A stretch of DNA of 64,000 nucleotides from Chrysophaeum taylorii (lineage: Eukaryota > Sar > Pelagophyceae > Pelagomonadales > Pelagomonadaceae). Every line of letters starts with the position of its first letter. Position 1 is the first letter of the stretch. Location of the stretch: contig JAQMWT010000242.1 in the NCBI GenBank assembly GCA_029834535.1, forward strand, positions 1 to 64,000, written 5' to 3'. Under the pieces are notes generated by a model that worked only from the letters and a program-made list of their open reading frames with translations, did not search any database and was not told where the DNA came from. Positions 28,173 to 58,846 of the stretch are shown here, one piece after another. A program made the position numbers and the translations under genes.

Positions 28173-31100
28173 TTGCTCCATACAGTAACTTCATCTACTA
28201 GCCCACGAATACCTACAGAAACTTTACTTTGCTCTGGGATGTCCACTCCTGCATTCTTGGCTTGCGCTTCTAATGACTTGCAAATCAACATCAACGTTAA
28301 AGTTCTTGTTGAGAGCGACGACAATATCACGCACATGCTACGAAGACGTTTTGGTAATTCCATCGAAGTTTTCCCATCCTTACCTAAGTTTTTGACATAT
28401 CACCATCGAGCATCGGACGTTGAACGTGCACGATATTACACTGACATAGTGGAATTGACATCACCATGCACAAATCGCAACATAATCAATGGGAGATCCG
28501 TTTCCACCTTCGAGCGCGATATGGATGATTCCTTGTTCCCAAGTGCTCTAAGTGTACTTGAGCTTTTAAAGCCGCTTGTTCTCTTCATGGAAATGACTCC
28601 ACCACACTCTGCATCGTATGAAGATCATATACGAGTTGCTAATCTCATCTTCTCAACGATGCACTATACGGTGGACATATGTGACCGATTTCCATGCTAT
28701 TTATGTGGAGATTATCAAGCCAGAGAAAGATGGATCCTTGTCGCACGCAAATATAACACCGGCCCTCTTGATCTGCTTTCATGGCCTAATAAACGAGTCA
28801 CTTCCTTTCTGGACATTGCAGACCACACTAATTCCATCAGTCGCAAGTTAATAGTCGACGAACCTTGGACGCAGGTCTTTCCTGACATACCATTTGTGTC
28901 CACACCTAAAACCTACAATATTTTCAGTCGTACAGGATCCGTGCGCTTAACTGTGACTGAGCTTGAAACCTTAACTATGCTGTTCCTTCGTCTGCACTCT
29001 AATAAAACAGTCGAACATCCCAGTCAAGATGAAATGGAGGGCATTTCTAACTTTCGCCTGGGATTCTTGACTAATTCAAGAAAACCACTTGCTTGCATGA
29101 GATCTCCTATTGAACTCAAAGCTTTTGTGCTCCTCTACAATATTATGGGACGATTATTCCCTAAATCCATCACACTACCTGTGTCCTTTCGTATTACAAC
29201 TATCGAATCTAACCAACCGTCTCACAGGTTATTCTTAAATAAATCCTCTACTTCATCCATCATTTACATCACTGGCGGAAGACATACAGGTGGAGACATA
29301 ACAGTTTCTAACTCTTCTTCTAAATACCAGGCACACATAAATGCTTTTGGCGAAACCTACGCCCTTTTAACACACGACGCCGGAACCGATAAGACTGCTT
29401 TTCTCGAACCAGTTACCGGTTTTCTTTGGCTTTGCAAAGCGTACCATAATAATAATGAAAATCAAGACACGCGTCGTCTAGTACAAGCACTGGTTTCCTA
29501 TACCTCTCCTGTATTTCACGATTCTTTTGTCTTCTACCCTCAGGAAAATCGTCTTGAATTTATCGACAAAATATTTGCTTTAAGTGACATGCATTTGTCC
29601 CAAAGCAGATATTTGGGCTTTATAACATCAAGCGATAGGAAGATGGGTGCCAAAGTTCACTCTATATACACTCCCACTCCTACCATTCGTGGATTTGCTA
29701 ATATGCTGGTGTACGATCCACGACTCGATCGCATTCGACACTACTCAACTCGCGAATTGGCACGCGCCAATAACTTCACAGCGTACCAAATCAATTTTCT
29801 TTTGTCTTTGTCCCCTGACCTATGCTGTGATATCATCGCAAATGCTATTCCAGCTGGAACATATCATGCAATTTATAAACATTTGTGTCAGCTTGTCTAT
29901 GACTTGCGTATATTAACACTATCACCATCGTTTGACCCTGATCACGCTCCTCTAACCAAAAACTATAGGTCAACCTTCTTCACAAATATATTCCCAACAG
30001 ATACATCCTTAACATTACACCAGAGTTCCATTACTATGTTCTACATCTCCAATAAAAAACTCTTATGTTGTGATACTATCACTTCTAACCACGAACTTCC
30101 TTCTTTTCATATTGATTCAGTAGCTCATGCTTTCCTCTCTAACATCTCATCCGCAGATATATCATCTCCTACTAAAGAAAAACAAATACCCCTTATAACG
30201 CCAAGACAGCTCCATGAGAAGCATGCGCCCTTCGATAAGAAAGTCCATGCCAGGGGCACCCTCGCATTTCGAGATGCGCAACAACGAGCTACCAATTTTC
30301 ACAACATTCACCATTCCAGTGATTCTCAAGCCATAAAAGCTGTTCAGGTTATTGCCAGTCCTGGACACCACCCATCTGACGTACCCTACCGTAAGTTCTG
30401 TGTGGATTGTACGATTCATAAAAAACGCTTTCCTCATCCACACCACCTTATCAAGCAACCATCATTCGAAAAAATTTTTCAACCTGGTGAAGCCTGGGCA
30501 TGTGACGGTGGTTACGTATCTGTGCTCTCGGAATGGGGATCCTTTCGACATATCATTGTTTTCAAGTGTCTCATTTCTAAATTTCTGTTAGTGTACTTTT
30601 GTCGTAGCACTAACTCCAGCGAATTTTGTAACGCCCTTGAGTTTGTCCGCAATTTTTGCTCTACTTATGTTCATGTACAACTAAAACAAATCTATTGTGA
30701 TTCCTTTAAACCCTATTTATCTCAGCATGTTACAACCCCCTTCCGTGTGGAACATGGTATTAATATGTCCGCGTTCCCCCCTTACTTACATGTCTTTAAT
30801 CATGAAGTCGAAGCCGCTGTTGGTCACATAGCCACTGCCGCGTCTACACGACTCAGGCATATGCTTAATGTATCCTATAAAGGTCACCCCCTAACAGATC
30901 CGGCACCACACTACCCGTGGGCTGTTATACATGCTATCCAATCATATAATCTCCTCCCTAACGTTTCCCTCGAACGTATTTACAATAAAGTCCTAAGCCC
31001 CCAACAAGTTTTGTTAGACCAATGTAATGTTCCCCAACAAGACCACCTCAAACCTTTTGGTTCTGTTTGTTATTTGCATTTGGAACCTAACGAATTTCAT

Positions 31101-31709
31101 AAATATGAACCCCGATGTCGTCCCTACATCTACTTATGCGGTGCTAACGTTATAAACCCTTTAATAACACCCCATGTTAATCATTTAGCCGATGTTGTCC
31201 CTAATCCTGAAAACGGCCAAGTCCGTGTTTCCTCTAAACTGACTTTTCCCATCTTATTTCTAAATCTCCTCCTGATTATGAACAGCATCCACCTCCCGCA
31301 CCTTCACCCGACATTCCCTTCTCTGTTCACAGCACCCCCAATGATGCGGCGCAGAGGGGGAATGCTATGCCTACCGACACTGACCATGAGAGGGGGGCTC
31401 CTTCTTCTCATCTCCATGCTCCCTCTCCCGCTCCCGCATTTGCTCCAGCTGCTCCTGCACCCGCTACTTCCACCACCAAACCTACATCTGAAGTGTCTCC
31501 CGACACTCTGCCACTTTTACCATCTTATCGGTCTCTCTATTCCCAGGATGTCCTCCGTCTCACCCGTGGTCCTCATCACCCTCAGCCTCGTCGCAAAACC
31601 AATCTCAAGGATGTTCTTACTCGTATTGCTTCGCCCACTGTTGCCGCTTATAAACAAGCCGGTGGTACGCTTGCCGACTTCAAGTATGACCTCTCCAAGC
31701 AGTACATAA
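28173..31709 (+). CDS. Pol fragment: large extra region plus integrase
   Basis: A 1,178-residue frame. About residues 1-660 form a region with no family I recognise, conserved in order with copy 1 (MSTPAFL, YLCGDYQ, NQPSHRL, TIRGFANM). The integrase zinc-binding part follows (HNIHH...KFCVDCTIHKK, about 715-755), then the catalytic core with Asp in WACDGGYVS, Asp in IYCDSFKPY and Glu in NHEVEAAVG. The end of the frame is out of register with reverse transcriptase. The extra region separates protease from integrase, where most copia elements have only a short linker. Confidence 0.8.
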   Translation: MLHTVTSSTSPRIPTETLLCSGMSTPAFLACASNDLQININVKVLVESDDNITHMLRRRFGNSIEVFPSLPKFLTYHHRASDVERARYYTDIVELTSPCTNRNIINGRSVSTFERDMDDSLFPSALSVLELLKPLVLFMEMTPPHSASYEDHIRVANLIFSTMHYTVDICDRFPCYLCGDYQARERWILVARKYNTGPLDLLSWPNKRVTSFLDIADHTNSISRKLIVDEPWTQVFPDIPFVSTPKTYNIFSRTGSVRLTVTELETLTMLFLRLHSNKTVEHPSQDEMEGISNFRLGFLTNSRKPLACMRSPIELKAFVLLYNIMGRLFPKSITLPVSFRITTIESNQPSHRLFLNKSSTSSIIYITGGRHTGGDITVSNSSSKYQAHINAFGETYALLTHDAGTDKTAFLEPVTGFLWLCKAYHNNNENQDTRRLVQALVSYTSPVFHDSFVFYPQENRLEFIDKIFALSDMHLSQSRYLGFITSSDRKMGAKVHSIYTPTPTIRGFANMLVYDPRLDRIRHYSTRELARANNFTAYQINFLLSLSPDLCCDIIANAIPAGTYHAIYKHLCQLVYDLRILTLSPSFDPDHAPLTKNYRSTFFTNIFPTDTSLTLHQSSITMFYISNKKLLCCDTITSNHELPSFHIDSVAHAFLSNISSADISSPTKEKQIPLITPRQLHEKHAPFDKKVHARGTLAFRDAQQRATNFHNIHHSSDSQAIKAVQVIASPGHHPSDVPYRKFCVDCTIHKKRFPHPHHLIKQPSFEKIFQPGEAWACDGGYVSVLSEWGSFRHIIVFKCLISKFLLVYFCRSTNSSEFCNALEFVRNFCSTYVHVQLKQIYCDSFKPYLSQHVTTPFRVEHGINMSAFPPYLHVFNHEVEAAVGHIATAASTRLRHMLNVSYKGHPLTDPAPHYPWAVIHAIQSYNLLPNVSLERIYNKVLSPQQVLLDQCNVPQQDHLKPFGSVCYLHLEPNEFHKYEPRCRPYIYLCGANVINPLITPHVNHLADVVPNPENGQVRVSSKLTFPILFLNLLLIMNSIHLPHLHPTFPSLFTAPPMMRRRGGMLCLPTLTMRGGLLLLISMLPLPLPHLLQLLLHPLLPPPNLHLKCLPTLCHFYHLIGLSIPRMSSVSPVVLITLSLVAKPISRMFLLVLLRPLLPLINKPVVRLPTSSMTSPSST

Positions 31710-42310: not shown

Positions 42311-44182
42311 CTAGGTGGTGCGCGAAGGCTTGACGCATCGGGCCAGGAGAAATCCAAGGACGAGGCCTAGCAGGAGAGCCGGTATGAAGGTCGCGTGATG
42401 TTGAGGGGGATGTTGGGGTTGCTTGTCTTCCTTGAGAACGTAGTACTTGGCGGGATTGACCGGTAAGTAGTATCCGACCTTCTTGAGCCAGCTGTCGGGG
42501 TAGAAGACTCGGCGGACGTCGGGGACGGTGTAGGACGCGGCCAAGACGTAACCGTCTCGGTACTTTGCCACGAGTTTATCGAAGAGCGAGCGCCACGCGT
42601 CGAGGACGTAGGGCCCAACGTAAGCGTGCCACTCGTCTTTGTCCAATTCGCCATGCCAGTAAGGTTCGACTCGAGCGTAGAGCTCAGCTTCGATTTGTTG
42701 CGCTTGCTTGACGTCCTCCGACGCGAGCTTGAAAATATTCGCTCGCATCCAATTCGCCACTTTTGTCACGGCCCACCACATCGAGTCGTTTGATACCTGA
42801 AACAACGAGCCGCGGCCCAAAGGCGTCGGCACCGCGGCGACAACAACGGGCGTGTAGAGCGACGCGTGCGGCGCGCCGGGCGCGAACCAGCTGATCGTCT
42901 TATTCCCGGAGCTCTGACTTGCCACCGAATACGAGGTTCGAAACATAGAAATTGCTCGTTCAAACCTTCCCGAGTTTAGCTCGTCGTGCGAGGGTAGTTC
43001 GGGTCGAATTTCGTCTTCAGTAGTTGGTCCTGCTCGCGCGGCGCCGTCGAAGCGAGTTGGATCTCCCCACGGTCCAGCCGCTAGGCCTTTTGTCAAATCA
43101 AACGGCGTGCCTTCGTAGTGGTCTCTCTGAATATTCAGGATATCCAGAAGCGAGAGTTGTCTTTCGGCGCGAACACTGAAAGGTAATTCGGAACCGAGAT
43201 AATCCGCCTTTCGGTGTCGGAGGTGTCGCTCGATTGCCTTTGGAGCCGTGAGTGACATGACGCGCCATACGCGGTGGACGCTGTAGGGAAAGAGTGTGTT
43301 GGGTCGCGGACCAAAAGTTTTCGCGAAATCGAGGAGACCATTTCGGTACGCGGTTATTCCGTTTCTCTCGGCGATGGCGACAGCGTTCGACGACAGATTT
43401 CCTTGCTCTCTGATCACAAACGAGTTGGCACAAACACCCACGTGATCGTCAGGGATCTGTTGCGCTGCCCAAATCGCGGACAGGCCCGTATCATCCGGAA
43501 GAATGTGAAACATCCACGTCTCCTTTCCGTCGGCGATCGTCAACGCCTCGCCGGCCTCGGGAGGTGTGGCCTCGGCGCCGTAATACCCGTACTCCTCTGC
43601 GATTTCGCCAATTGTAGAGATTGCGCAGCGTGCGGTGGCGCATTTCCGCATCACGAGCTTTGAAAGTGCAGCGACGTCGAAGAGTGGTCCTTCGCACGTC
43701 GGACATTCGCGCACGGGCCGACCTACGAAGTGCGCTTCGCACGTTGACTCGCCCATCGTCAACCCATGATTGTTTGCAATCCCGTAGAGACTTTCGAGGC
43801 TCTCGAAATCGCCGCCCACGTCGAGCTCTCCCGCTATCCACTCAGATTGCCACTCGTCCGACGTCCACGCCTTTTTTTGCTCTTTCGCGACAGCCGAATT
43901 TCCAGGAGGCCAGATGTCGACGTCGAGCGACGAGTACTCGAGATTGTCCGGGCTCCACACGGCCGCGCGCTCGCTCACTTCCAATGGATAGTGCGGTTTG
44001 TACTTGCGAATAAGATTGTCTTGACGCGCGACGTGGGCGAGACGGAAATCGCAGTTGTAACAGTCAGCAGTATGAGTGACGACCGTCCTCCCATCGCGCA
44101 TCGCCCGATGCCCGATCGCGATCGTCGTGCACGCGCTGACCATCATCGGCAACATCATGGCAATCGTCACCGGAAACAACAT
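42311..44182 (-). CDS. C69-type (dipeptidase A/PepD-like) peptidase with signal peptide and C-terminal anchor
   Basis: 623 residues from the chosen Met. MLFPVTIAMMLPMMVSA forms a signal peptide, and the next residue (Cys18) begins CTTIAIGHRAMRDG, the start of family C69 enzymes, Ntn-type hydrolases whose nucleophile is the N-terminal Cys of the mature chain. Family signatures follow: HTADC, GLTMGESTCE, ETWMFHILPDD and AAQQIPDDHVGV. Cleavage by signal peptidase would itself expose the nucleophile. The C-terminus has a hydrophobic span (FIPALLLGLVLGFLLA) then a short basic tail, so the enzyme is probably membrane-anchored with its catalytic part in the lumen or outside. The frame is open 39 residues further upstream (Met at 44,299); I prefer the inner Met because the signal peptide and Cys then fall in the expected places. 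Confidence 0.8.
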   Translation of the reverse strand: MLFPVTIAMMLPMMVSACTTIAIGHRAMRDGRTVVTHTADCYNCDFRLAHVARQDNLIRKYKPHYPLEVSERAAVWSPDNLEYSSLDVDIWPPGNSAVAKEQKKAWTSDEWQSEWIAGELDVGGDFESLESLYGIANNHGLTMGESTCEAHFVGRPVRECPTCEGPLFDVAALSKLVMRKCATARCAISTIGEIAEEYGYYGAEATPPEAGEALTIADGKETWMFHILPDDTGLSAIWAAQQIPDDHVGVCANSFVIREQGNLSSNAVAIAERNGITAYRNGLLDFAKTFGPRPNTLFPYSVHRVWRVMSLTAPKAIERHLRHRKADYLGSELPFSVRAERQLSLLDILNIQRDHYEGTPFDLTKGLAAGPWGDPTRFDGAARAGPTTEDEIRPELPSHDELNSGRFERAISMFRTSYSVASQSSGNKTISWFAPGAPHASLYTPVVVAAVPTPLGRGSLFQVSNDSMWWAVTKVANWMRANIFKLASEDVKQAQQIEAELYARVEPYWHGELDKDEWHAYVGPYVLDAWRSLFDKLVAKYRDGYVLAASYTVPDVRRVFYPDSWLKKVGYYLPVNPAKYYVLKEDKQPQHPPQHHATFIPALLLGLVLGFLLARCVKPSRTT

Positions 44183-45739
44183 GTTCAACCAGGATTGAAT
44201 GACTAGGAACAAGGCGTTAACACACATGTACCCAGGTACTAAATGTAGACGAGTGGCTCTCCTTAAACCAAAGATTCCGAACATTCGCTGTATTCTCACA
44301 CTTGAGGTAGGTGGGGAGTGGGGAACTTTTTTGAGTGGTGGCTGCCCTACCCCACCCCACAGAAGTGATCATAGTCTCCTCTAGGAGATGGCGCACCTCT
44401 CGTCCAGCCTGCGGACGCTCGCGCGAGGTAGTTGATATCCGTCGCCGAGTCGCGGAGTGTTCACTCGCCCTATCCGCGGCGGTGCTGCTGCGCAGGATCG
44501 ATTCGCACGCGTGCACCGAGCCTACTGGCAACGCCAGCACGCCTCGGGATGCTTGATCAATACATGGATTGGACGCAGGAGTCGCTGCTCCTCGTGCGAC
44601 GACGCCGCTCGAGACAGACAAGGGCAGCGCGTGCGGTAGGGGCCTATGCCGAAGTCTCGCTGAGCACAATTCGCTGCGGGTATTTATTTAACGCAGCATA
44701 CCCAGCTAAATTGGGCGCGCCCATTTTGTTTGTTGGACCACACGCGACGCCGACCCAAAGCGGACGAGTTCCACTACGCGCGACGTTTTGATCTTGTGGC
44801 CAATGCATGTAGAAATCGGGAGCCGAATTGGCCGTCTCGACGCTCGGGCAAGACGCCGGGACTCCAAAAGGTCCAACCTTGAATACGGTCAAGGGCCGGA
44901 CCAGCATGATGGCGTTTTGGCACACTCGCCGCTCGAGTGGCTCGCAGCGCACATTTCAAGTTCCCAGGGCGGCCGGTTCAGTAATCTCATATGTCACGCT
45001 CAATCACGCCCCTAAGGACCATAACGAAGTCCTAAAAAGCCGCCATTCTCTCTTGAATGAATGCGGGCTGGTGTTTGGGAACATGGAGGCCACTTTGATG
45101 CGGGCCGACATCATCTCATATTCGCCTAATCTAAGAGCACCACCGCCCGCCAGCTGCAGAAGGGTGGCTCTCTGACGTGCCGTGGTTTCCGTCGGTGGGG
45201 CTGACCCGTGACATCATCCTCGGTGATTCGCGCTCGCAGCGGCCCAGTCAGAAGCTCGGAAGACGACGAAGAGTATAGTATATGCCGCTGATCGTTCAAA
45301 AAGAGGGCTCGGGCAGCCCGTTTGTGACCAGGAGAGTGCCCTGCAGCTGAGGGAAGGCGCCGCTCCTGCATGTATACCGAGTGTCGCAAGCTTGGTCGCA
45401 TTCTTAGAAACCATGCTTCTCGTAGAGTCCCGACGACGATATTGATGTGCCACGACGTCACGGATCGCCATAAAAATATCCTCGTTGTCACTGACGGGGC
45501 TGCGAGGGCGACCTCTCCAATTCGCAGTGCAGCCGGGAGGGGTCTCGCATGTTCGCGTCAAGCCTGTTCCTCGTCGCGTCCACCACCAAGCTAGGGACGT
45601 TTGCTGGCTTCGATACTCGAACGGAGCGTCTCTACTTAGTTCGAGGTGGGTGTGTGCCCGCGAGCGAACTGACTCTCGAGAGGGTGGTGCTCATGGTCGA
45701 GCCAAAACTGTCGTCCGAGATGCGAAGCCAGGGCGAGGC
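44183..45739. other. Unassigned stretch between peptidase and Lys-rich gene
   Basis: Several frames of 60-130 residues overlap on both strands (for example minus 44,644-44,952 and 45,214-45,561), with no domain I can name and no consistent codon pattern. It may hold promoter regions, untranslated sequence or a decayed repeat. Confidence 0.3.
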
Positions 45740-46285
45740 TCAGCATCGTCGTTTCTTTTGCTTCGTCTTCTTCTTTTTCTTCTTCCTTTTCTTCTTCTCC
45801 TCCTCCTCTTTGCCAGGGGACTCGTCGCGGGCGAGGCTCTTGAGGAGGAGCTTTTGTCTTTCCTTGGAGCTGAGTGAGGCGAGAAATGCACCGTCGTGGT
45901 CCTCCTCCTCCTCCTCGTCGTCCTCCTCGACGAGGCTATAGCCCTCGTTGTGCTTGCCGTGCGCGGGCGCGCAGCCCGGAGCGGCGGCGTGGAGATTTGC
46001 CTTAAGGACGAGGCGTTCCTCGGCCTCGTGCGCCGCGGCGAGGTCGCGCGTCGGGACCGGACGTCGGCGTTTCTCTGGTCGTTCGGGCTCCTCGTCGTCG
46101 TTTCGGTTGTCGAGTCCCGGTGGCGGCGGCGGGGCGTATATGAAGCCAAGCGAGTCCTGCGGCTCGAGGACGCAATCGCGCCGCAGCTCGTCGAGCGATC
46201 TTTCCTGGGCCGAGACGCGCTCCTTCTCGCGGTCCTCGGCGAGGCGGACGGCCTTGCGCGTCTTTTCGCGGAGGCGCTTGTGCAT
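45740..46285 (-). CDS. Lys/Glu-rich protein of unknown function
   Basis: 181 residues. The N-terminal 40 are charged and helical (MHKRLREKTRKAVRLAEDRE), followed by FIYAPPPPPGLD, an acidic run EEDDEEEEEDHD, the motif FLASLSSKERQKLLLKSLA and a C-terminal poly-Lys stretch. This layout looks like a small nuclear or nucleolar protein, but I cannot name a family. An in-frame TAG lies 9 nt before the ATG, fixing it as the first possible Met in this exon. Its start is only 27 bp from that of the divergent TTC5-like gene; a poly-pyrimidine CTACTAG just upstream could instead be a splice acceptor. Confidence 0.6.
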   Translation of the reverse strand: MHKRLREKTRKAVRLAEDREKERVSAQERSLDELRRDCVLEPQDSLGFIYAPPPPPGLDNRNDDEEPERPEKRRRPVPTRDLAAAHEAEERLVLKANLHAAAPGCAPAHGKHNEGYSLVEEDDEEEEEDHDGAFLASLSSKERQKLLLKSLARDESPGKEEEEKKKRKKKKKKTKQKKRRC

Positions 46286-46312
46286 ACCACCGCCCTAGCC
46301 CTAGTAGTCGTG

Positions 46313-47560
46313 ATGATCAAAAGTGACCTCGCGGCGTTGTGGGAGCTGCGCGAGAAGTACTTTGGCGAGGACAAGGAGAAGGAGATCGAGGCGAGGATCG
46401 CGCGTCTCCTCGAGGCGGCCTCGGCGCTGGCACCGCAGGAACGCGCGCTCGCCGCGCTGGTACGGGGTCGCGCGCTCGACGCCCGGTCCGAGTACTGCGC
46501 CGAGGCCGAGGCGGAGCTATCTCGCGCGGTGAAGCTGAGTCCGTCGAGCGTGGATGCCTGGTACGGTCTGGGGCACGTGTTCTGGAAGAAGCGGGACCTG
46601 CGGTCGGCGAAGGAGTGCTTCGCAAGCGCGAACGCGCGCCGCGCGAACGGTCCGTCGTCGCGCGCGTTATCGATGCTCGCCCGGCCGCGGGACTACGACG
46701 AGTCCGTCGCGCTCGCGCGTTCCGCGATCGAGCTCGACCTCGACGACCCCGAGTCGTGGTACGTGCTGGGAAACGCGTGCCTCTCCAGGTACTTTGCCGG
46801 CGCCGAAGGTCGAAATCCGAGCGACCTCGAGGACGCGCGCCGCGCCTACGGGCTCGCCGAAGCGAGGTTGCGCGATCCGCAGGTTGAGACCAACCTCGAG
46901 TTCGGCCACCCCGATCTCTACTTTAACCGCGGGCACCTGCGCCGCTACGTCGAGGACTACGCGGGCGCCTGCGACGATTTTCTGAAGAGCGCCCTCCTCG
47001 ATCCGTCTCTCGGCGGCCGGGAGACGGCCGATGATGTCCAGCGCTGGGCCAAGCGCGTGCACGACCTCGTCGTCAGGAAGCGCGGCGGCCTCAAGCCCAA
47101 GCGCCGCGCCGAGCTCGCGGCAAAAATCAAAGACCGATCAACGCCCTTCAACGTCCTGGCCAAGGGCGATCGCTCGCGTTGTCTACACGCCTCGAACAAC
47201 CGGGGCGCCCGGCTCCACCTCGTCATCGCCCTCGAGATCCGCCGCGCCTCGCTCCCGCCGGATATCTTTCTCGCGCTCGCTCCCGCGACCGACGCCGACG
47301 ACGGCTTGACTTGTGTCGCGCTCGCCGTCTACGACGCCGACGCGGCCGGCCTCGCGCCCGGCGTCGCCTGCGTCGTCCTCGACCCGACCGTTTCCACGGT
47401 GGCGGTTCCTCCTCCTCCCATGGGGGGGGAACACGAGAATGAGCTGGCGACGTACGACGTCGTCCGCGTCGCTGCCCACGACCGAATCCTCGTCGACGGC
47501 ACGACCCCCCTGCCAAAGGCCCTCCGAGCCGTCGCGATCTGCGGTGCCAGATCATCCTAA
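46313..47560 (+). CDS. TTC5/Strap-like TPR and OB-fold protein
   Basis: 415 residues, close to the roughly 440 of animal TTC5. Residues 1-260 hold TPR-type helical repeats, e.g. AVKLSPSSVDAWYGLGHVFW, AIELDLDDPESWYVLGNACL and HPDLYFNRGHLRRYVEDYAG. After a basic linker (KPKRRAELAAKIKDR) the C-terminal 120 residues match the OB-fold typical of this family, with VVLDPTVSTVAVPPPP, YDVVRVAAHDRILVDG and the end. In animals TTC5 is a stress-response cofactor and an adaptor for tubulin autoregulation; the role here is inferred only from architecture. The start is the first Met after the divergent gene. A polyadenylation-like AATAAATAAA follows the stop at once, then a Helitron derivative. Confidence 0.8.
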   Translation: MIKSDLAALWELREKYFGEDKEKEIEARIARLLEAASALAPQERALAALVRGRALDARSEYCAEAEAELSRAVKLSPSSVDAWYGLGHVFWKKRDLRSAKECFASANARRANGPSSRALSMLARPRDYDESVALARSAIELDLDDPESWYVLGNACLSRYFAGAEGRNPSDLEDARRAYGLAEARLRDPQVETNLEFGHPDLYFNRGHLRRYVEDYAGACDDFLKSALLDPSLGGRETADDVQRWAKRVHDLVVRKRGGLKPKRRAELAAKIKDRSTPFNVLAKGDRSRCLHASNNRGARLHLVIALEIRRASLPPDIFLALAPATDADDGLTCVALAVYDADAAGLAPGVACVVLDPTVSTVAVPPPPMGGEHENELATYDVVRVAAHDRILVDGTTPLPKALRAVAICGARSS

Positions 47561-47571
47561 AATAAATAAAT

Positions 47572-48646
47572 ACAAGTGCAGGCCAGTAAGTTCACCTACT
47601 CCCAATCTCTAACCCCAGCATTTTCACCCCATTAAGTTCACCTAGTCCCAATCTCTAACCCCAGTAAATTCGGCGTAAACCCAATCTCTATAGTTCGGCG
47701 TAAACCCACACCCACTCACCCCACTCTCCTTCGAGCTCGTCGCTCTCACCCCCGCCAATCTAAGCTGCTTTGATCCGCACACGCCGCTAAGCTTTGAGTT
47801 TATTCTAAAAGCCCCAGTAAGTGTGCACTTGGTCTCAGTAAGTTCTCCTGGTCACTAAGTTCACCTAATCCCAATCTCTAACCCCAGTAAGTTCACCTGG
47901 TTCCAGTAAGTTCACCTGGTCCCAGTAAGTTCACCTACAGTGCGCGTGTAGACGCCGGGAGGGGCTTATCGGTATTGCGCAGCACGTGTGGGGTAGGGTG
48001 GAGTCGTCGACCCAGAAGAGGATATCCTCGGGGTTGCCGATCGACAGAGAGCCACGTAGAGCTGGACGTGGCAGAAGACGGGCTTGGGAAAGAGGACGCC
48101 GACCTCGCGGGGCGTCTGGCCCTGGCTCTTGTTGATCGTTTGGCGTAGGCGGGCCTTAAGGGATACAGGTTGGAGGAGCCTCGGTGACAACGACACGATC
48201 GATCATGTATCTGGTACCGTTGCAGTGGCCGTGCGACGGGTCGAGGTTGCGAAGACATTAAGCTCGCGATCAAAGTCAGCATGCCGTTGGTTGTCAGGGA
48301 GTTGAAAACTCGACTGTAAAGAGCGAGGCGTCGTCTTCCGACCCAGCCTAGTCAGCCGAAAAGAACTCCGACGCCTCGTCTCCGGGGAAAAAAGGCCGCG
48401 GTCATGCGCGCGTTGTCAGCATCGACAACATCGTTTCGACGGGGCGTGAGAATGGCGCGCTGAAAGAGCCGCCGCGGGTCGTGGAAATAGTCTGCGAGGT
48501 CGCCGTAGACGGCGAGGATCACTGTCTGGCTCTCGCGCCTACCTGATCCTTACTCTCGCGCCTACCTGATCCTTACCCTAAATCGAGGGACAAACAGACA
48601 GACAAACAAACAAACAGACAAACATCTGTCGATTAGTAGTTAGGAA
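47572..48646 (-). mobile_element. Helitron derivative C (first of a tandem pair)
   Basis: Same ends as the other copies, ACAAGTGCAGGCC at the left and GATTAGTAGTTAGGA at the right. Carries the helicase C-terminal fragment on minus (TINKSQGQTPREVGVLFPK). Inserted 12 bp after the TTC5-like stop codon. Directly followed by copy D in the same orientation. Confidence 0.8.
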
Positions 48647-49372
48647 ACAAGTGCAGGCCAGTAAGTTCACCTAGTCCCAATCTCTAACCCCAGCATTTTC
48701 ACCCCGTTAAGTTCACCTAGTCCCAATCTCTAACCCCAGTAAGTTCGGCGTAAGCCCACTCGTGCTCACACCCACTCACCCCACTCTCCTTCGAGCTCGT
48801 CGCTCTCACCTCCGCCAATCTAAGCTGCTTTGATCCGCACACGCCGCTAGCCTTTGCGTTCACTCTAAAAACCCCAGTAAGTTCACTTGGTCCCAGTAAG
48901 TTCACCTGGTCACTAAGTTCACCTAGTCCCAATCTCAAACCCCAGTAAGTTCACCTGGTCCCAGCAAGTTCACCTACAGTGCGCGTGTAGACGCCGGGAG
49001 GGGGCTTATCGGCATTGCGCAGCACGTGTGGGGTAGGGTGGAGTCGTCGACTCAGAAGAGGATATCCTCGGGGATGCCGATCGACAGAGAGCCACGTAGA
49101 GCTGGACGTGGCAGAAGACGGGCTTGGGAAAGAGGACGCCGACCTCGCGGGGCGTCTGGCCCTGGCTCTTGAGAATGGCGCGCTGGCTAAAAGAGCCGCC
49201 GCGGGTCGTGGAAATAGTCTGCGAGGTCGCTGTAGACGGCTTGGAGGATCACTGTGTGGCTCTCGCGCCTACCTGATCCTTACTCTCGCGCCTACCTGAT
49301 CCTTACCCTAAATCGAGGGACAGACAAACAAACAGACAGACAGACAAACATCTGTCGATTAGTAGTTAGGAT
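48647..49372 (-). mobile_element. Helitron derivative D (second of a tandem pair, internal deletion)
   Basis: Same ends as C, but about 350 bp between CCCTGGCTCTTG (49,163) and AGAATGGCGCGCTGG are missing, removing most of the helicase fragment. Head-to-tail contact with C, with no bases of flanking DNA between, fits tandem Helitron insertion. Confidence 0.8.
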
Positions 49373-51170: not shown

Positions 51171-51410
51171 TTGGCACCCGGAACGTTCGCAGTGGGACGG
51201 GGTATGGCCGGGGGGCGCAGACGGAAGGTTATCGGCGAGTTGGTTGTCGGTCACATCGCGGTCTCCTCGTCGCATGGCGACAAGCTTGATGATCACTCTC
51301 CGCCGACCCACCTTTCGGCGCCCCTCGTCTACAGGCCAGTGATTCCGGGCTGGCTCCTGTCGGTCCGGCCTGGCTCCCATGCTCGGGAGAGGTCTGAAGT
51401 AAGTTAGTTA
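51171..51410 (+). mobile_element. SINE-like LINE derivative
   Basis: GGAACGTTCGCAGTGGGACG to GGCTCCCATGCTCGGGAGAG and a short TTAGTTA tail, very close to the copies at 10.6 and 35.8 kb. Imperfect flanking match cacccgacact / cacccgtcact may be the target duplication. Confidence 0.7.
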
Positions 51411-52955: not shown

Positions 52956-55900
52956 TCACCCCGCATCGTCCTCTTCCGACGACGACGACGATGACGACGC
53001 GGATGACGCCTTTTTCTTCTTCTTCCGAGAGGTTGAGGATGCCGACTGCTTTGCTTGGAACTTTACGAGGTATGCGGGGTAGGCCTGGAAATCGGAATAG
53101 GTGACGTAGATGGACGGCTTTTCCATGTTGTCGACGGTCGTGTCGAAGCGATGATGGGGCCTGTCGACGCGGAGCGGCGGTAGGGTCGTCTCCTGATTGC
53201 CGATGCAGTAGCACCCAACGAGGATACGCGACACGAGGACGTGCTGGATGCCCTCGTCGTCGGGCGGCGAGTACTTGGGAAAACAGGAATACTCCGAGTT
53301 GGTGGCAAAGTAGACGCCGCGGCCGTGCTGGGCCGCCGTCGAGCAGAAGTCCCGGTTGAATCCTTGGGCGACGATGCGCGCGGAGCTCACCTTGGTCGTC
53401 CCGTGGAAGACGGGCCAGCGCTCGACGCGGTCGAGGTCGCGCGTGCCTTCCTGCTCGAGCATCGTGAGGCGGTTGGCCGTAAACGCGCGCCAGAGCGAAA
53501 GATTTTGAACTCGGTCGACTGCGAGGACCTTGAAATAGCGGCGGTCGAAGAAGTCGGCGATCTGCCGGTGTTCCTTGTGGCCGTCGGCGAGAGGGACGAG
53601 GCCCTCGGCCTGGGTCCACGACTTGGGCGGCAGTAGGAATTTGAAGTCGGCGGGTTTGGCGGTGGGTAGCATGTCAAGCACGTCTTCGCACTTACGCACG
53701 CTCGACAGCGGAAACCACCCGGCGTTATCGAGAACTTCGGCCACGTTGCCGCGCGAGAGCTCGCGCCCAAACGCCCACTCGCCGCTATCGTGCTCGACGA
53801 CGATCGAGACAAGCATGCCGGGAACTAGCCGCATCGGGTTCCCCTGGATGTCGGTTGGCATGCCGCGAACCACCGGCACGCCGCGGACGACGCGGGTCGG
53901 CTCGGCCTCGCTCGCGACTTCCTCGATCACGACGCACACGGGACGCTGGAATCCCGTGTCGACGCGGCGCTGCCACATCTTCTTGACGTCGACCTCGTAC
54001 TTGGCGTCTGCGAGGCTCGACTCGGTGTCGTCCATGAGCTCGTTGAACTGGTCGAGCCATAGTCGCGGGCTGGCGTTCGAGTCGCTGCGAAACGCGTAGT
54101 ACAGCTCGGAGAGCCGACGTTGCACCTCGGCCAACTCGTACTTGATCCAGAGAGATCCCTGACGCGTCATGTTCTGGCTCCACTTGCCCATGTGCCGCTG
54201 GTGCTCGCGCCAGTACCACGTGAGGACGACAGCCCGCCCGCTGTCGACGCGCAGCACGCGCCGCGTGCTTTTGGTCTTTATGTTCCGCTGGATCATGATC
54301 GCGACGTCGATCTCGAGCTGCTTGTCTTTGCTCACGTGAATCTTGAGCTTGTGCAGCGAGGCCTTGGGCATCCCGCCCGCGACCGCGGCGTCGGCCGCTT
54401 GCAGCCGTAGTTTCTCCTTGGTTGCCGGAGGCAGCTGGAGATATTTATGCCAAAGTTCCGAGAGCTGGTCTTGGACGAGGCTGTCGTATGGCGCCCATTT
54501 CGTGACCCCGTCCTTGTCGATCAGCACGCGATCCCTCTCCCCGCCGGCGTCGTTGGTGCACTCCCAGTACCAGAGGCTTTCGTAGTACACGTCGCCGGGA
54601 TCCTCCTCTTCTTTGAGCTCCTCCTTGATCTCGCCGTCCGAAGACGAACGACGGTGATTCTGCTGGAACGACGTACTCGTCGTGCCTAGCGGTGCCGTCT
54701 CGACGACGGCCTGATCACTACTGTTTTCGTCGTCGTCGTTCGACTGGAGTGCGTAGACAACCACGTTATTCTGCGAGCCCTGACTAAAGAGGTCGCCGGC
54801 ACCGCGCTTTTCGATCACGCTGCTGATCGTGCGGCGCGTCTCGTGCGCCGTCGGATCAAACGCCTCGACGACCTCGTAGGCGTTGAGCGAGGCCACCAAA
54901 GCGCGGCGGTGGCGTTTCGTTTGGCGGCTAAACGCTCTGCACATGCAGCAGCACATGATGAGAACGAGCGTGCTGAACCCAACGCCAAACGAGACGAAAA
55001 TGCGCATATTTCGGCGGTCGTAGCGACGGGCGGAAGTGCCGTCCTCGCTCGCGTCCGCAATAGCCGGCGGCTCGTCGTCAGGCGGCTGCGTCAATTCTCC
55101 CGGCCAGATTATTTGGTTTTCCCAGACGACGAGCTGATGTGTTGAAGCGGGATACTCTCCCGCGACGACGAACTCCGCGAAAGAAAAGAACAGCGGTAAG
55201 GACAAAAGCATTCGCTTGCCGTCGCCGTTGACGAGCTGAAGGTTGACCAACTCCAAAGTGCCGAGGCGATCGCCGTCGGGCGCCAGCGTCACGTTGCCAG
55301 AGGCGCCCTCGAAGCGCGGCAGCTCGAGGATCGCGTCGAACGCGCTCGCCGTGCTGTCGCCCGCGGCATCGACGCCTTTGGCATACGCGAGAACCGCGTC
55401 GCTCCAAAATAGAGAGACGCGCGTCGACGTGAGAGGGTCGCCGTCGACGTCGCAGTAGTGGTAGTTGTCACTACTCGTGGCGATTTCGGCCTCGATGTCG
55501 TCGTCGTGGACCTCCTCCATCGGGCGGATGCTGTACCCCGTTTGCTGGAGCGCATCTTCGTCGTCCTCGTTCTTGACGAAGTCGTAGCTTATGCCCGGAG
55601 CGTACGACCGGTCGACGCACGATTCTGCCGTCGGACCGTGCGCCGCCCAGGCGTCCACGTAGGTGGTGGTCGCCGCGCCGCCGCTCTCGTAATCGGGATA
55701 GTGATCCAAAAAACCAAGGCTGCCGCGCTGGCCATAAAATGCGTCGTAGTCGACGGCTTCGCCCTCTGACGAAGACGAGATCAGTGCATCTTGCGAGGGG
55801 AGATGGTTGAGCCACGCGTAGCCGGCGCCGTTCAGCACGCCCGTGCGGTACGACGCCGCGAACAGAGAGCGCTGGACGCGGGGCTGCGCGACGAGCAGCA

Positions 55901-58421
55901 CAATCCTGGCACCAGTCGCATCGACCACGTCGAGAACATCTTCGGCGCTCACGTCTTGCCTGTCGAAATCTTGGAGGGAGATAGCAACGCCGCCCGCGTC
56001 GATCTCGCGCCGGCACGCGTCCCCGACGCACGCGCCCCCGCCGAGGACGTCGTACGCGTAGACGTCGGCGAAGGCGGCGGCCGCCGACGCTGCCCATTGC
56101 GAGTCGTCGTGGACGATCGCGACGTGTTGCCAGCCGTAGTAAGCCACGAGATCTCCGAGCGCATGCGCGATCTCGTTTTCGGGCGTCGCCAAGCGTACGA
56201 GAAACGGATACGTCGCGTCGTCTTCGAGAATACTCGCCGTCGTGCTCGTCGCGATGACGACGTACGCCTGGGTCTGACCTGTCGCTTCTGAAAATCTCGC
56301 TCGAATCGCCTCGTCGGCAAGCTCCGCGGCATCGTCCGAACAGCCCGTGATGACGGCGTCGACGCGAATTTCGAGCTCTCGCGCGATCTCGACGAGGGCT
56401 TCGTACGCGAGCGCGCGCGCGCATCCGACCGAGAGGTCGTATCCGATGAATTGAATTGACGGAGCGAGATCGTCGTAGTAGCCGTCGTCGCGGTCGTTCA
56501 GCATGTCCACCGTGAACAACGCGTGGTCGCACTGCTCGCGTGCCGACTCCGAGTCGGCATCGCACAGCACGACGATGTTTGCCAACGCGACGTCGGCCGT
56601 TTGCGAGATTCGCGTCTCGAGAGGGTACTCGACGTCCGGACGCAACGGGGCGTCGGGGTCACTATAGAATTCAGAGAGGTAGGCCGACACCGCCCGGAAC
56701 GCCGTGACACCCGAATAATACACGTTGGTGGCGTCGTCGACGTCGATGATGTCGGCGAACGCAAAGTCGTCGCCGAGGAAACGCGACGACACGGCGAGCG
56801 AGTACTTCGCGGCCTCGGCGTCGTCGCTCAGCAGCTCGCCGTCGAAATAAATTCGTTCGCCGACGGTTGGCGTCTCCCCCAAGTAATACCAGGTCACTTG
56901 GAGCCGCGACGAGATCTGGAGAAAGAAGCGGTCGCCGTAGAACTCGGAGGAAGACGAATCGTCCGCTTGGAGCGAGTGCGACTCGATGACGAGGCGCTCG
57001 AACGAATGCTGGAGCAGGACGCGCAGGGCCGGTCCGGTGATGCCGTCAAGGCGCACGATTTCGTCGCCGATGTCGGGCAACATCTCGAGAAGATGCGAGT
57101 CGAGGACATCGAACTTGAACAACGAGGCCTGGATGGCGCCGCACGGCACGAAGCCGACGTCGGCGGCGACGTACCACGCGAGGGCGTCGGCGACGAGGTC
57201 ACCTGCGGGGCACTCGGCTACAGCGCAGCCGCACATCGAAACGCCTTCGACAGCGAGACTCGTACACATCTGCCCGGGAATGAGGTGGGAGCCATCGACG
57301 GTGTCCCAAACGTAACCGGCGAGGCCGAGGTCCCAGTCGCCGAGTTTGTTGTCGATCTCCTGCTTGTACGCGTCAATCACCTCTCGCGTCACCGCGTCCT
57401 CGTCGGCGTAACAGTCCAGGTCGGTGCGGTTGATTTTTGACAGCCCAGGTTGAAGGAACGGTAGCTCCTCTTTGACGCCGATCGTCACGTTCGTGAGCGC
57501 TGTTCCGTGCTGCGAGTCGTCGATCGACGCGATCGCCACCGTTTCGTCAGCCCAGTTTGGGAGCTCGTGAACGACCGACCTCTCGCCGACCAGCGCGCCG
57601 TCTACAATCACGGCAGTCGTGGAGGGATATTGGTACACGAACTGAAGACCGGGTGCGCCGAGCAAGTCTTCCTCTTGGTCGCCAGACATAGTGACGACGA
57701 TGATTTGCGGCGGGTACGACCATCGACTCATCTCGCGAAATGCGCGAACCATGGCCTGCTCGGGGGAAATGAGGCGGTCCGCGTAATAGGGCGAAACCGT
57801 GCGGAGCTCCATTTCGTCAATCATCGTCAAAATGGCCGCTATCGGGGCTTGATAAACGTCGGGATAGCCCGAGTCATCGCCTCGATCAAACAGCGTGATG
57901 TTGGCAATCTGCGCGACCGTGTCGTTCAAGTACGGCTCGTTCGAGAGGTCGAGGTTGGTCGCAATCGCGGGGGGCCCGCCGCGCCTCAAGTACTCGCCCA
58001 ACAGGACACCCCCCGTGGGATCGTCATCGTTGACGCCCGCGGCGAAATCCCTCGGCGAGAGTGCGCGGACATCATAGCCCGACGACTCGAACAGCTCGGC
58101 CGCGACCTCCCCTTCGAAGGCTGGGAAGAACAAACCCGACCCGGAGAAGAAGCCGCCGAGGTCCAAGGCGATGATTGCCGACTTGCCCTCCGCGATGGCC
58201 TGAGTCTTCCGGGCTTTGATGGCCTCGACTCGTCGCGCTGCTCCGCCATCGCACTCGCACGGCTGGGAAGCGTACTTGTCGAGCGAACATTCGCCCAACC
58301 CCGCCACGTCGACGGGATACTGGGCGCCCAGCACGTCATTTGTGACCACAAACTCCACCTCGTACGCGACTGCCACCGTCCAGAAGATGTGAGCAATGAC
58401 CCTCCAGCCATTTCCTTTCAT
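52956..58421 (-). CDS. Receptor-like transmembrane PARP with pseudo-nucleotidase and ligand-binding ectodomains
   Basis: About 1,821 residues, one exon. MKGNGWRVIAHIFWTVAVAY is a signal peptide. Domain 1 follows the 5'-nucleotidase fold (FVVTNDVLGAQYPVD; GGAARRVEAIKAR; ALDLGGFFSGSGLF; later CPAGDLVADALAWY), but the metal and catalytic residues are lost: NDVL for NDVH, SPRDF for GNHEF, TMSGD for SHSG, YQYPST for GHSHT. Domain 2 (about 605-1,070) resembles the ANF/periplasmic-binding type I receptor domain (ANIVVLCDAD, VYYSGV earlier, YPFLVRLATPENEIAHALGD, YYGWQHVAIVHDDSQW). One membrane span (FVSFGVGFSTLVLIMCCCMC, about 1,137-1,160) precedes a cytosolic region with WWE-like parts and a PARP catalytic domain (about 1,600-1,780): RVQNLSLWRAF, FHGTTKVSSARIVAQGF, GRGVYFATNSEYS, FQAYPAYLV. 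The H-Y pair is present and Ile stands where poly-ADP-ribosylating enzymes have Glu, predicting mono-ADP-ribosylation. The start is the inner Met; another lies 19 residues upstream. Confidence 0.88.
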   Translation of the reverse strand: MKGNGWRVIAHIFWTVAVAYEVEFVVTNDVLGAQYPVDVAGLGECSLDKYASQPCECDGGAARRVEAIKARKTQAIAEGKSAIIALDLGGFFSGSGLFFPAFEGEVAAELFESSGYDVRALSPRDFAAGVNDDDPTGGVLLGEYLRRGGPPAIATNLDLSNEPYLNDTVAQIANITLFDRGDDSGYPDVYQAPIAAILTMIDEMELRTVSPYYADRLISPEQAMVRAFREMSRWSYPPQIIVVTMSGDQEEDLLGAPGLQFVYQYPSTTAVIVDGALVGERSVVHELPNWADETVAIASIDDSQHGTALTNVTIGVKEELPFLQPGLSKINRTDLDCYADEDAVTREVIDAYKQEIDNKLGDWDLGLAGYVWDTVDGSHLIPGQMCTSLAVEGVSMCGCAVAECPAGDLVADALAWYVAADVGFVPCGAIQASLFKFDVLDSHLLEMLPDIGDEIVRLDGITGPALRVLLQHSFERLVIESHSLQADDSSSSEFYGDRFFLQISSRLQVTWYYLGETPTVGERIYFDGELLSDDAEAAKYSLAVSSRFLGDDFAFADIIDVDDATNVYYSGVTAFRAVSAYLSEFYSDPDAPLRPDVEYPLETRISQTADVALANIVVLCDADSESAREQCDHALFTVDMLNDRDDGYYDDLAPSIQFIGYDLSVGCARALAYEALVEIARELEIRVDAVITGCSDDAAELADEAIRARFSEATGQTQAYVVIATSTTASILEDDATYPFLVRLATPENEIAHALGDLVAYYGWQHVAIVHDDSQWAASAAAAFADVYAYDVLGGGACVGDACRREIDAGGVAISLQDFDRQDVSAEDVLDVVDATGARIVLLVAQPRVQRSLFAASYRTGVLNGAGYAWLNHLPSQDALISSSSEGEAVDYDAFYGQRGSLGFLDHYPDYESGGAATTTYVDAWAAHGPTAESCVDRSYAPGISYDFVKNEDDEDALQQTGYSIRPMEEVHDDDIEAEIATSSDNYHYCDVDGDPLTSTRVSLFWSDAVLAYAKGVDAAGDSTASAFDAILELPRFEGASGNVTLAPDGDRLGTLELVNLQLVNGDGKRMLLSLPLFFSFAEFVVAGEYPASTHQLVVWENQIIWPGELTQPPDDEPPAIADASEDGTSARRYDRRNMRIFVSFGVGFSTLVLIMCCCMCRAFSRQTKRHRRALVASLNAYEVVEAFDPTAHETRRTISSVIEKRGAGDLFSQGSQNNVVVYALQSNDDDENSSDQAVVETAPLGTTSTSFQQNHRRSSSDGEIKEELKEEEDPGDVYYESLWYWECTNDAGGERDRVLIDKDGVTKWAPYDSLVQDQLSELWHKYLQLPPATKEKLRLQAADAAVAGGMPKASLHKLKIHVSKDKQLEIDVAIMIQRNIKTKSTRRVLRVDSGRAVVLTWYWREHQRHMGKWSQNMTRQGSLWIKYELAEVQRRLSELYYAFRSDSNASPRLWLDQFNELMDDTESSLADAKYEVDVKKMWQRRVDTGFQRPVCVVIEEVASEAEPTRVVRGVPVVRGMPTDIQGNPMRLVPGMLVSIVVEHDSGEWAFGRELSRGNVAEVLDNAGWFPLSSVRKCEDVLDMLPTAKPADFKFLLPPKSWTQAEGLVPLADGHKEHRQIADFFDRRYFKVLAVDRVQNLSLWRAFTANRLTMLEQEGTRDLDRVERWPVFHGTTKVSSARIVAQGFNRDFCSTAAQHGRGVYFATNSEYSCFPKYSPPDDEGIQHVLVSRILVGCYCIGNQETTLPPLRVDRPHHRFDTTVDNMEKPSIYVTYSDFQAYPAYLVKFQAKQSASSTSRKKKKKASSASSSSSSSEEDDAG

Positions 58422-58682: not shown

Positions 58683-58846
58683 TATTAGTGGACATGGCGA
58701 CAAGCTTGATGGTCACTCTCCGCCGACCGACCTTTCGGCGCTCCTCGTCTACAGGCCCGTGATTCCGGACTGGCTCCTGTCGGTCCGGCCTGGCTCCCAT
58801 GCTCGGGAGAGGTCTGAAGTTAGTTAGTTAGTTAGTCTATTAGTGG
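58683..58846 (+). mobile_element. 5'-truncated SINE-like copy with 9-bp target duplication
   Basis: Flanked by tattagtgg at 58,683-58,691 and 58,838-58,846. The insert starts at ACATGGCGACAAGCTTGATG and ends GGCTCCCATGCTCGGGAGAG with (TTAG)n. 5' truncation is usual for target-primed reverse transcription. Confidence 0.85.

Follow-up and report, generated by a model that had tools for sequence, protein, structure and literature searches.

A candidate single-pass receptor with a cytosolic PARP domain, and its relatives, in the pelagophyte Chrysophaeum taylorii

The window analysed here is a stretch of 64,000 nucleotides of Chrysophaeum taylorii DNA, part of contig C242 (JAQMWT010000242.1) in an assembly of 70.8 Mb and 697 contigs. 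On its minus strand, at 52956-58421, one frame of 1821 codons plus a stop, without an internal stop, joins a binding ectodomain, one membrane span and a PARP catalytic domain. Taken as a whole, the product is probably a type I single-pass receptor with a cytosolic PARP output, as judged from sequence. Such a protein had been proposed in a first-pass annotation of this DNA; the case is now broader, extending to a family of such genes whose ectodomains are of two unrelated kinds.

A single frame joining ectodomain, membrane span and PARP domain

The frame runs from an ATG at 58421 to a stop codon at 52958-52956, and the plus strand across the same interval contains stops. Its GC content is 0.80 at third codon positions (GC3) compared with 0.43 at second positions (GC2). 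Since long antisense open reading frames are also present in the window, length alone is weak evidence, and the case for a real gene is carried by homology and selection. The first-pass annotation had placed an uninterrupted frame at exactly these coordinates, without naming the strand. A protein search returned the deposited C. taylorii protein CTAYLR_008929 (P0002), with 100% identity over 97% of the query. The P0002 model is also one gene and shares the start ATG; its end differs, 31 nucleotides (GT...AG) inside the PARP region (53085-53115, minus strand) being treated as an intron. These 31 nucleotides include the third residue of the catalytic triad, and because the stretch is conserved in paralogues, the intron is probably an annotation error. 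The UniRef label on the receptor-PARP proteins is poly [ADP-ribose] polymerase. The parts of the gene and its product are as follows (aa, amino acid positions).

52956..58421, minus: receptor-PARP gene, 1821-codon frame plus stop, deposited as CTAYLR_008929 (P0002)
58365..58421, minus: signal-peptide-like start, aa 1-19 (approximate); hydrophobic N terminus, mature start judged from paralogues
57252..58364, minus: degenerate N-terminal half of a 5'-nucleotidase (CD73-like) fold, aa 20-390; profile match to 5'-nucleotidases, key residues replaced
56823..57245, minus: 5_nucleotid_C, aa 393-533; Pfam 7.9e-8, PDB profile matches
55236..56423, minus: ANF-receptor (type I periplasmic-binding) domain, aa 667-1062; Pfam 1.5e-20, matches to metabotropic glutamate receptors, GABA-B2 via the family profile
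54945..55001, minus: single transmembrane helix, aa 1141-1159; hydropathy 2.31, basic residues on both flanks
54243..54575, minus: WWE domain 1, interrupted by an insertion, aa ~1283-1393; Pfam WWE stretch, extent by eye from the alignment
53931..54224, minus: WWE domain 2, aa ~1400-1497; best Pfam stretch 1463-1496, start from the alignment
53682..53849, minus: SH3-like domain with a GWFP motif, aa ~1525-1580; SH3_2 E 0.0033, family profile
53055..53597, minus: PARP catalytic domain, aa 1609-1789, triad H1673, Y1704, I1771; PARP14 1.1e-32, residue alignment, motif positions
52959..53051, minus: C-terminal tail rich in Lys and Ser/Glu; from the sequence

Four Pfam families scored above their curated cut-offs in the 1821-aa protein: 5_nucleotid_C, ANF_receptor (74 bits, cut-off 25.4), WWE (E 1.3e-6, two stretches) and PARP (PF00644; 39.9 bits, cut-off 26.7, aa 1631-1739, E 4.2e-10). 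Hydropathy gave one strong span, at aa 1141-1159, and a weaker N-terminal hydrophobic stretch. Together, Pfam, profiles and hydropathy recovered every part named in the first-pass annotation (signal-peptide-like start, 5'-nucleotidase fold, ANF domain, one span, WWE and PARP), along with its FHGT and GRGVYFA motifs, which begin at aa 1672 and 1700; the SH3-like domain and the degenerate state of the nucleotidase site had been missed, as had the paralogues and the more distant relatives described below. The domain order and the one span are those of an enzyme-linked single-pass receptor, with the signal-peptide-like start coming from hydropathy. The proposed single-pass receptor with a PARP-type cytosolic domain is thus supported by its anatomy; its location and membrane side we infer.

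The best solved relatives of the PARP domain are PARP14 (1.1e-32) and PARP15 (1.5e-27). H1673 and Y1704 align with the PARP14 His and Tyr of the NAD+-binding triad, and I1771 aligns with the PARP14 Leu; the Glu that poly-ADP-ribosylating PARPs carry at the third position is replaced here by Ile. Because the triad is H-Y-I, mono- rather than poly-ADP-ribosylation is predicted. The mono-ADP-ribosylating output of the first-pass annotation fits this triad, and NAD+ turnover itself we infer.

A family with two ectodomain types

The genome contains 21 PF00644 matches; for 10 of them, spread over 8 contigs, the same single frame also encodes a binding ectodomain and a membrane span. Frames on C242 (the window gene), C125, C129, C323 (three in tandem), C370 and C379 carry the pseudo-5'-nucleotidase/ANF ectodomain (the C379 frame without its first codons), and two carry tandem PstS-like domains in its place.

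L019:1670-5287, minus: receptor-PARP on C673; two tandem PstS-like domains replace pseudo-5'-nucleotidase/ANF
L018:1675-5679, minus: receptor-PARP on C389; the same replacement, with a PARP end that looks intron-disturbed

Four further PF00644 loci, one on C388 and three on C439, have ANF, 5_nucleotid_C and a span alongside on the same strand; because these parts sit in separate frames, we read the loci as intron-split or damaged. C360, C552 and C122 have no span above 1.85, and the one of 1.85 lies inside the PARP region of C552. The last matches are on C495, C474 (twice) and C480. Protein search added two members, P0006 on C149 and P0009, which we placed on C606 because domain spacings agree to the base, bringing the family to at least 16 loci in C. 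taylorii, 14 of the pseudo-5'-nucleotidase/ANF type and 2 of the PstS type. Both C323 (L010-L012) and C439 (~101.8-124 kb) carry tandem triplicates of receptor-PARPs. C675 and C148 gave 5_nucleotid_C and ANF matches but no PARP match.

Three protein searches returned 4, 14 and 15 proteins, with only candidates sharing most words being scored in the 4- and 15-protein searches. The 14 proteins comprised nine of receptor type (six from C. taylorii, three others) and five animal PARP10/14-like proteins; the 15 comprised seven relatives (of which all but P0018 and P0020 match an ectodomain), P0023, six animal PARPs and P0030. C673 and C389 themselves were absent among the database proteins returned. 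Eight further database proteins join an ectodomain to PARP (P0005, P0007, P0008, P0016, P0017, P0019, P0021 and P0022), in every case with an intervening hydrophobic span, though the PARP domain is cut short in P0022 and disturbed at its end, under the cut-off, in P0008. These eight likely come from other species. P0030 combines kinase, RING and PARP domains in one protein.

One WWE-SH3-PARP output sits below two unrelated ectodomain families, pseudo-5'-nucleotidase/ANF and tandem PstS, which speaks for receptor ADP-ribosyltransferases as a modular class. P0023 (CTAYLR_005589), from the same alga, carries PstS-like ectodomains on a class C seven-transmembrane receptor, a pairing that interchangeable sensors would predict.

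We found the HG[TSC] motif in 32 of 34 aligned PARP rows; it is absent from P0009, a receptor, and from the searched stretch of P0013, an animal protein. Of the 21 receptor rows, 20 retain both HG[T/C] and G[RK]GxY, and the third triad position is Ile, Val or Leu in receptor rows where readable (P0022 ends before it). C360 and C552, in the same genome and without ectodomain matches, have Glu at this position.

A tree of 28 PARP domains, midpoint-rooted for drawing only, put the six animal rows and P0030 on their own side (99/100) and the receptor PARPs outside, with none placed inside the animal PARP10/12/14 clade. Eleven pseudo-5'-nucleotidase/ANF and ANF receptors grouped together (100/99). 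P0019, which has a pseudo-5'-nucleotidase/ANF ectodomain, fell outside these 11, beside the fragment P0018 (80/27), both in an open fork that also takes in the PstS-type C673, P0016 and P0017 as well as P0020 and P0021. Re-pairing of ectodomains and outputs may have occurred. Eight of the 25 inner branches are open, the deep forks are unordered and C323a sits on a long branch; the tree label 'PstS' was also given to two fragments lacking any PstS match, P0018 and P0020, and counts for that group therefore mean little. Rows dropped beforehand were P0022 (PARP cut), C122, C323b and C323c, and P0009 and P0013 were not extracted, their motif not being found. Also outside the tree are C388, two C439 copies, C495, C474, C480, P0002-P0004, P0023, P0024, P0026, P0027 and P0029. 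The tails of C389 and P0008, which look intron-disturbed, were trimmed. When the cytosolic alignment was run by tblastn against viral_contigs (64 pattern matches) and genome_contigs (83 pattern matches), one scan each, no relative was found, and a prokaryotic or viral origin of the module was set aside.

Pairwise Nei-Gojobori omega values among paralogues, taken without a significance test, indicate that recent duplicates are under purifying selection. For C125/C129, omega is 0.28 over the whole, 0.21 in the transmembrane and juxtamembrane segment and 0.14 in PARP, with every segment at or below 0.37. The three C323 copies gave 0.27-0.33 overall and 0.04-0.09 in PARP, with 0.34-0.45 for the cytosolic and membrane segments of C323c relative to its sister copies. 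For C370/C379 and C242/C125, overall synonymous divergence (dS) exceeds 1, so their omegas (~0.4) are rough.

Competing readings of the protein

Among the readings weighed, the receptor-PARP is the best. Its outer part, in which a pseudo-5'-nucleotidase is linked with an ANF/GABA-B-like Venus-flytrap domain, would most likely bind a small ligand. The single membrane helix and a conserved juxtamembrane stretch could then carry closure on the ligand, or rearrangement of a dimer, to the cytosolic WWE-WWE-SH3-PARP module, whose PARP domain (H-Y-I, PARP10/14/15-like) would mono-ADP-ribosylate itself or neighbouring proteins. Probable roles of the other cytosolic parts are recognition of ADP-ribose-containing groups by the WWE domains and recruitment of partners by the SH3-like domain; removal of the mark probably falls to hydrolases of the PARG, macrodomain or ADP-ribosylglycohydrolase (ARH) type. 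Matches to these families in the genome, all probable erasers, number 3 for the macrodomain, 2 for PARG (one with an internal TAG) and 5, in 3 open reading frames, for ARH.

Several observations weigh against this reading. Type I topology is suggested by the signal-peptide-like start and the identity of the domains, and the charge rule is not decisive: the window protein has 5 basic residues within 15 aa before the span and 6 after, and among the 20 receptor rows with a real span, flanking charge is more positive on the PARP side in only 14, with 5 opposite and 1 tie. N-glycosylation sequons (5 before the span versus 4 after) do not separate the sides either. As neither charge nor sequons settle the membrane side, our confidence was lowered slightly. 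The SH3_2 match of the window copy (17.5 bits, E 0.0033) is below the curated cut-off of 21.8, while a profile built from 10 family members finds SH3 chains first (intersectin-2 being the top PDB match), hence the label SH3-like; SH3_2 is matched in 6 of 10 members at E <=0.01 (best 3.9e-6). In the deposited P0002 model the PARP domain is missing its end, and the deposited C439 model P0010, compared with the locus (L036), skips the genomic stretch coding for the membrane span, through either a wrong intron or a soluble isoform; given these two models, soluble or inactive isoforms may exist. P0009, a receptor-PARP, lacks FHGT and is probably a dead member of the family, a pseudo-PARP receptor. 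Finally, the origin of the database relatives in other species is likely rather than proven: none equals a C. taylorii protein among those compared, but the assembly is ~81% BUSCO-complete, according to the genome report (PMC10366177).

P0009 also bears on an alternative we regard as unlikely, namely that the receptors end in an inactive PARP fold, a scaffold for sensing NAD+/ADP-ribose or for binding proteins, which is a role suggested for plant RCD1/SRO. In its favour, the P0009 domain has lost the catalytic motif, the third triad position is Ile, Val or Leu in place of Glu in every readable receptor row, and RCD1 is described as apparently inactive in the PARP survey text available (PMC4245714). 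Against it, HG[TSC] is retained in all other receptor rows, and PARP omega in recent duplicates is 0.04-0.14; H-Y-I/L/Y triads, moreover, are present in active mono-ADP-ribosyltransferases.

Placing the same anatomy in membranes of the endoplasmic reticulum, vacuole or plastid complex, with lumenal ligands, is likewise doubtful. PARP16 acts at the endoplasmic reticulum. As a membrane PARP with a C-terminal segment (PMC4245714), it offers a precedent for such an endomembrane sensor; the ectodomains, however, are large and related to extracellular or periplasmic binding domains, which weighs against this placement.

The first half of that ectodomain raises a third possibility, that of a working ecto-nucleotidase supplying its product to the attached ANF domain. 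A profile built from five paralogous pieces (window, C125, C129, C323a and C370) picks up the 5'-nucleotidases of Thermus and snake venom and CD73 itself, with whole-sequence E values starting at 2.4e-9, one stretch per fold half (stretch E ~0.004-0.05), so that both halves of the fold are recognisable. D-x-G-D has become D-x-G-G, GNHE is nprD-like and NGGGIR is GALGAS-like in all five aligned paralogues, and the Asp of the first metal motif is gone in four, the window copy alone retaining it (NDVLG). The full set of metal and catalytic residues of the enzymes (CD73) was not found in the profile and paralogue alignments. Because the replaced residues are, as we take them from CD73, at metal, catalytic and nucleotide-contact positions, this half is named a pseudo-nucleotidase, and despite the Asp of the window copy an active enzyme is disfavoured by the residue losses and very improbable. 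The same losses weaken the nucleotide ligand considered in the first-pass annotation; an amino acid, its other suggestion, may be the ligand.

An artefact, with the fusion arising by misassembly or by read-through of an intergenic region, hardly deserves credence: gene annotation was automatic, but ten paralogues spread over 8 contigs show the same join in a single frame, the eight further database proteins show it too, purifying selection extends over the membrane segment, and the assembly, which combines Illumina, Nanopore and PacBio reads with gene calls from RNA-seq and protein homology (PMC10366177), is a long-read one. The assembly join within the frame that the first-pass annotation had allowed for is accordingly unlikely.

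For the ligand of the receptor-PARP in the window, the nearest relatives of its ANF domain are metabotropic glutamate receptors by single sequence (mGluR7, 1e-4) and GABA-B2 by the family profile (7e-13). Aligned with metabotropic glutamate receptors, the Thr of the STAP motif is retained, and an Asp and a Tyr further on are not; we take all three to be amino-acid contacts. The PstS region of C673 matches bacterial phosphate-binding PstS at 6.2e-36. Its first repeat retains R-x-D-x-S-G-T, presumably the stretch that contacts phosphate in E. coli PstS, and the equivalent place in the second repeat reads RSDVSQTT. This suggests phosphate as the first candidate ligand for the PstS branch of C673, not for the receptor in the window.

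We give an even chance to a wider proposal, in which this alga and its kin have a separate class of receptor ADP-ribosyltransferases. Exchangeable nutrient- or transmitter-binding ectodomains (pseudo-nucleotidase/ANF, ANF alone or tandem PstS) would switch on mono-ADP-ribosylation at the membrane with NAD+ as signalling substrate, and the PstS versions would be phosphate receptors tying nutrient status to ADP-ribose marks.

Comparison with known systems and genomic surroundings

PARP10, PARP14 and PARP15, soluble animal proteins with macrodomains and other parts, resemble the window protein in the PARP domain itself (PARP14 being the best match), in the non-Glu third triad residue and, for several, in having WWE domains; unlike them, the window protein has a signal-peptide-like start, an ectodomain, a membrane span and an SH3-like domain. 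PARP16, which to our knowledge has no ligand-binding ectodomain, is likewise a PARP tied to the membrane by one segment. That segment is C-terminal (PMC4245714), whereas the span here is central, with ~1100 aa before it, and hydropathy detected no hydrophobic span after aa 1159, leaving no PARP16-type segment behind the PARP domain. Plant RCD1/SRO proteins, for which we know of no ectodomain, share the order WWE then PARP; they differ in an RST domain and apparent inactivity (PMC4245714).

Among receptors, the closest plan is that of the receptor guanylyl cyclases, or natriuretic peptide receptors, which have an ANF ectodomain, one span and a cytosolic enzyme. The output here is instead a PARP with WWE and SH3-like parts, and no guanylyl cyclase or kinase domain was found by Pfam at E up to 1, at which only the four families matched. 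Class C G protein-coupled receptors (metabotropic glutamate, GABA-B) provide the closest solved Venus-flytrap relatives of the ANF part, but have seven spans where the window protein has one span and an enzyme in cis. CD73 and bacterial 5'-nucleotidases share both fold halves; the window copy differs in its lost active-site residues and its setting inside a receptor.

The enzyme-linked receptors known to us end in kinases, phosphatases or cyclases. The present combination is a variant of that plan; it would count as a new receptor class if its ADP-ribosylation were controlled by a ligand. A receptor ending in a PARP would link its ligand directly to NAD+ consumption and ADP-ribose marking and give ADP-ribosylation a direct sensing role, and the PstS-type sisters suggest phosphate as a concrete ligand. 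Searches of titles and abstract starts in the open-access PMC literature (subscription journals lying outside this scope) turned up no receptor with a PARP output and nothing pairing a pelagophyte with PARP; the claim of novelty, which agrees with the first-pass annotation, rests on these searches. In the parts available, a PARP survey reports membrane segments in PARP16, a sponge protein, Rhizaria and rice, and names no receptor (PMC4245714). The available text of a 2010 survey includes Aureococcus, a pelagophyte placed there under brown algae, in its table of genomes BLAST-searched for PARPs, and states that diatoms and brown algae appear to have no PARPs (PMC2964712); the later survey gives one PARP in the brown alga Ectocarpus (PMC4245714). 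Given these reports, the family may be patchy and specialised.

The receptor gene is flanked on both sides by a 138-nucleotide direct repeat (96%), at 51273-51410 and 58693-58830 of the window. An imperfect duplication with a spacing of ~1.05 kb and AAGTTCACCT-type repeats occupies 47572-49350. Farther away, a TPR (TTC5-like) match lies at 45896-47560 (plus strand) and a match to the peptidase C69 family at 42311-44299 (minus strand). Weak reverse transcriptase and integrase/retroviral SH3-like matches, below cut-off, at 6675-7919 (minus) and 28173-31709 (plus) are possible retroelement remains.
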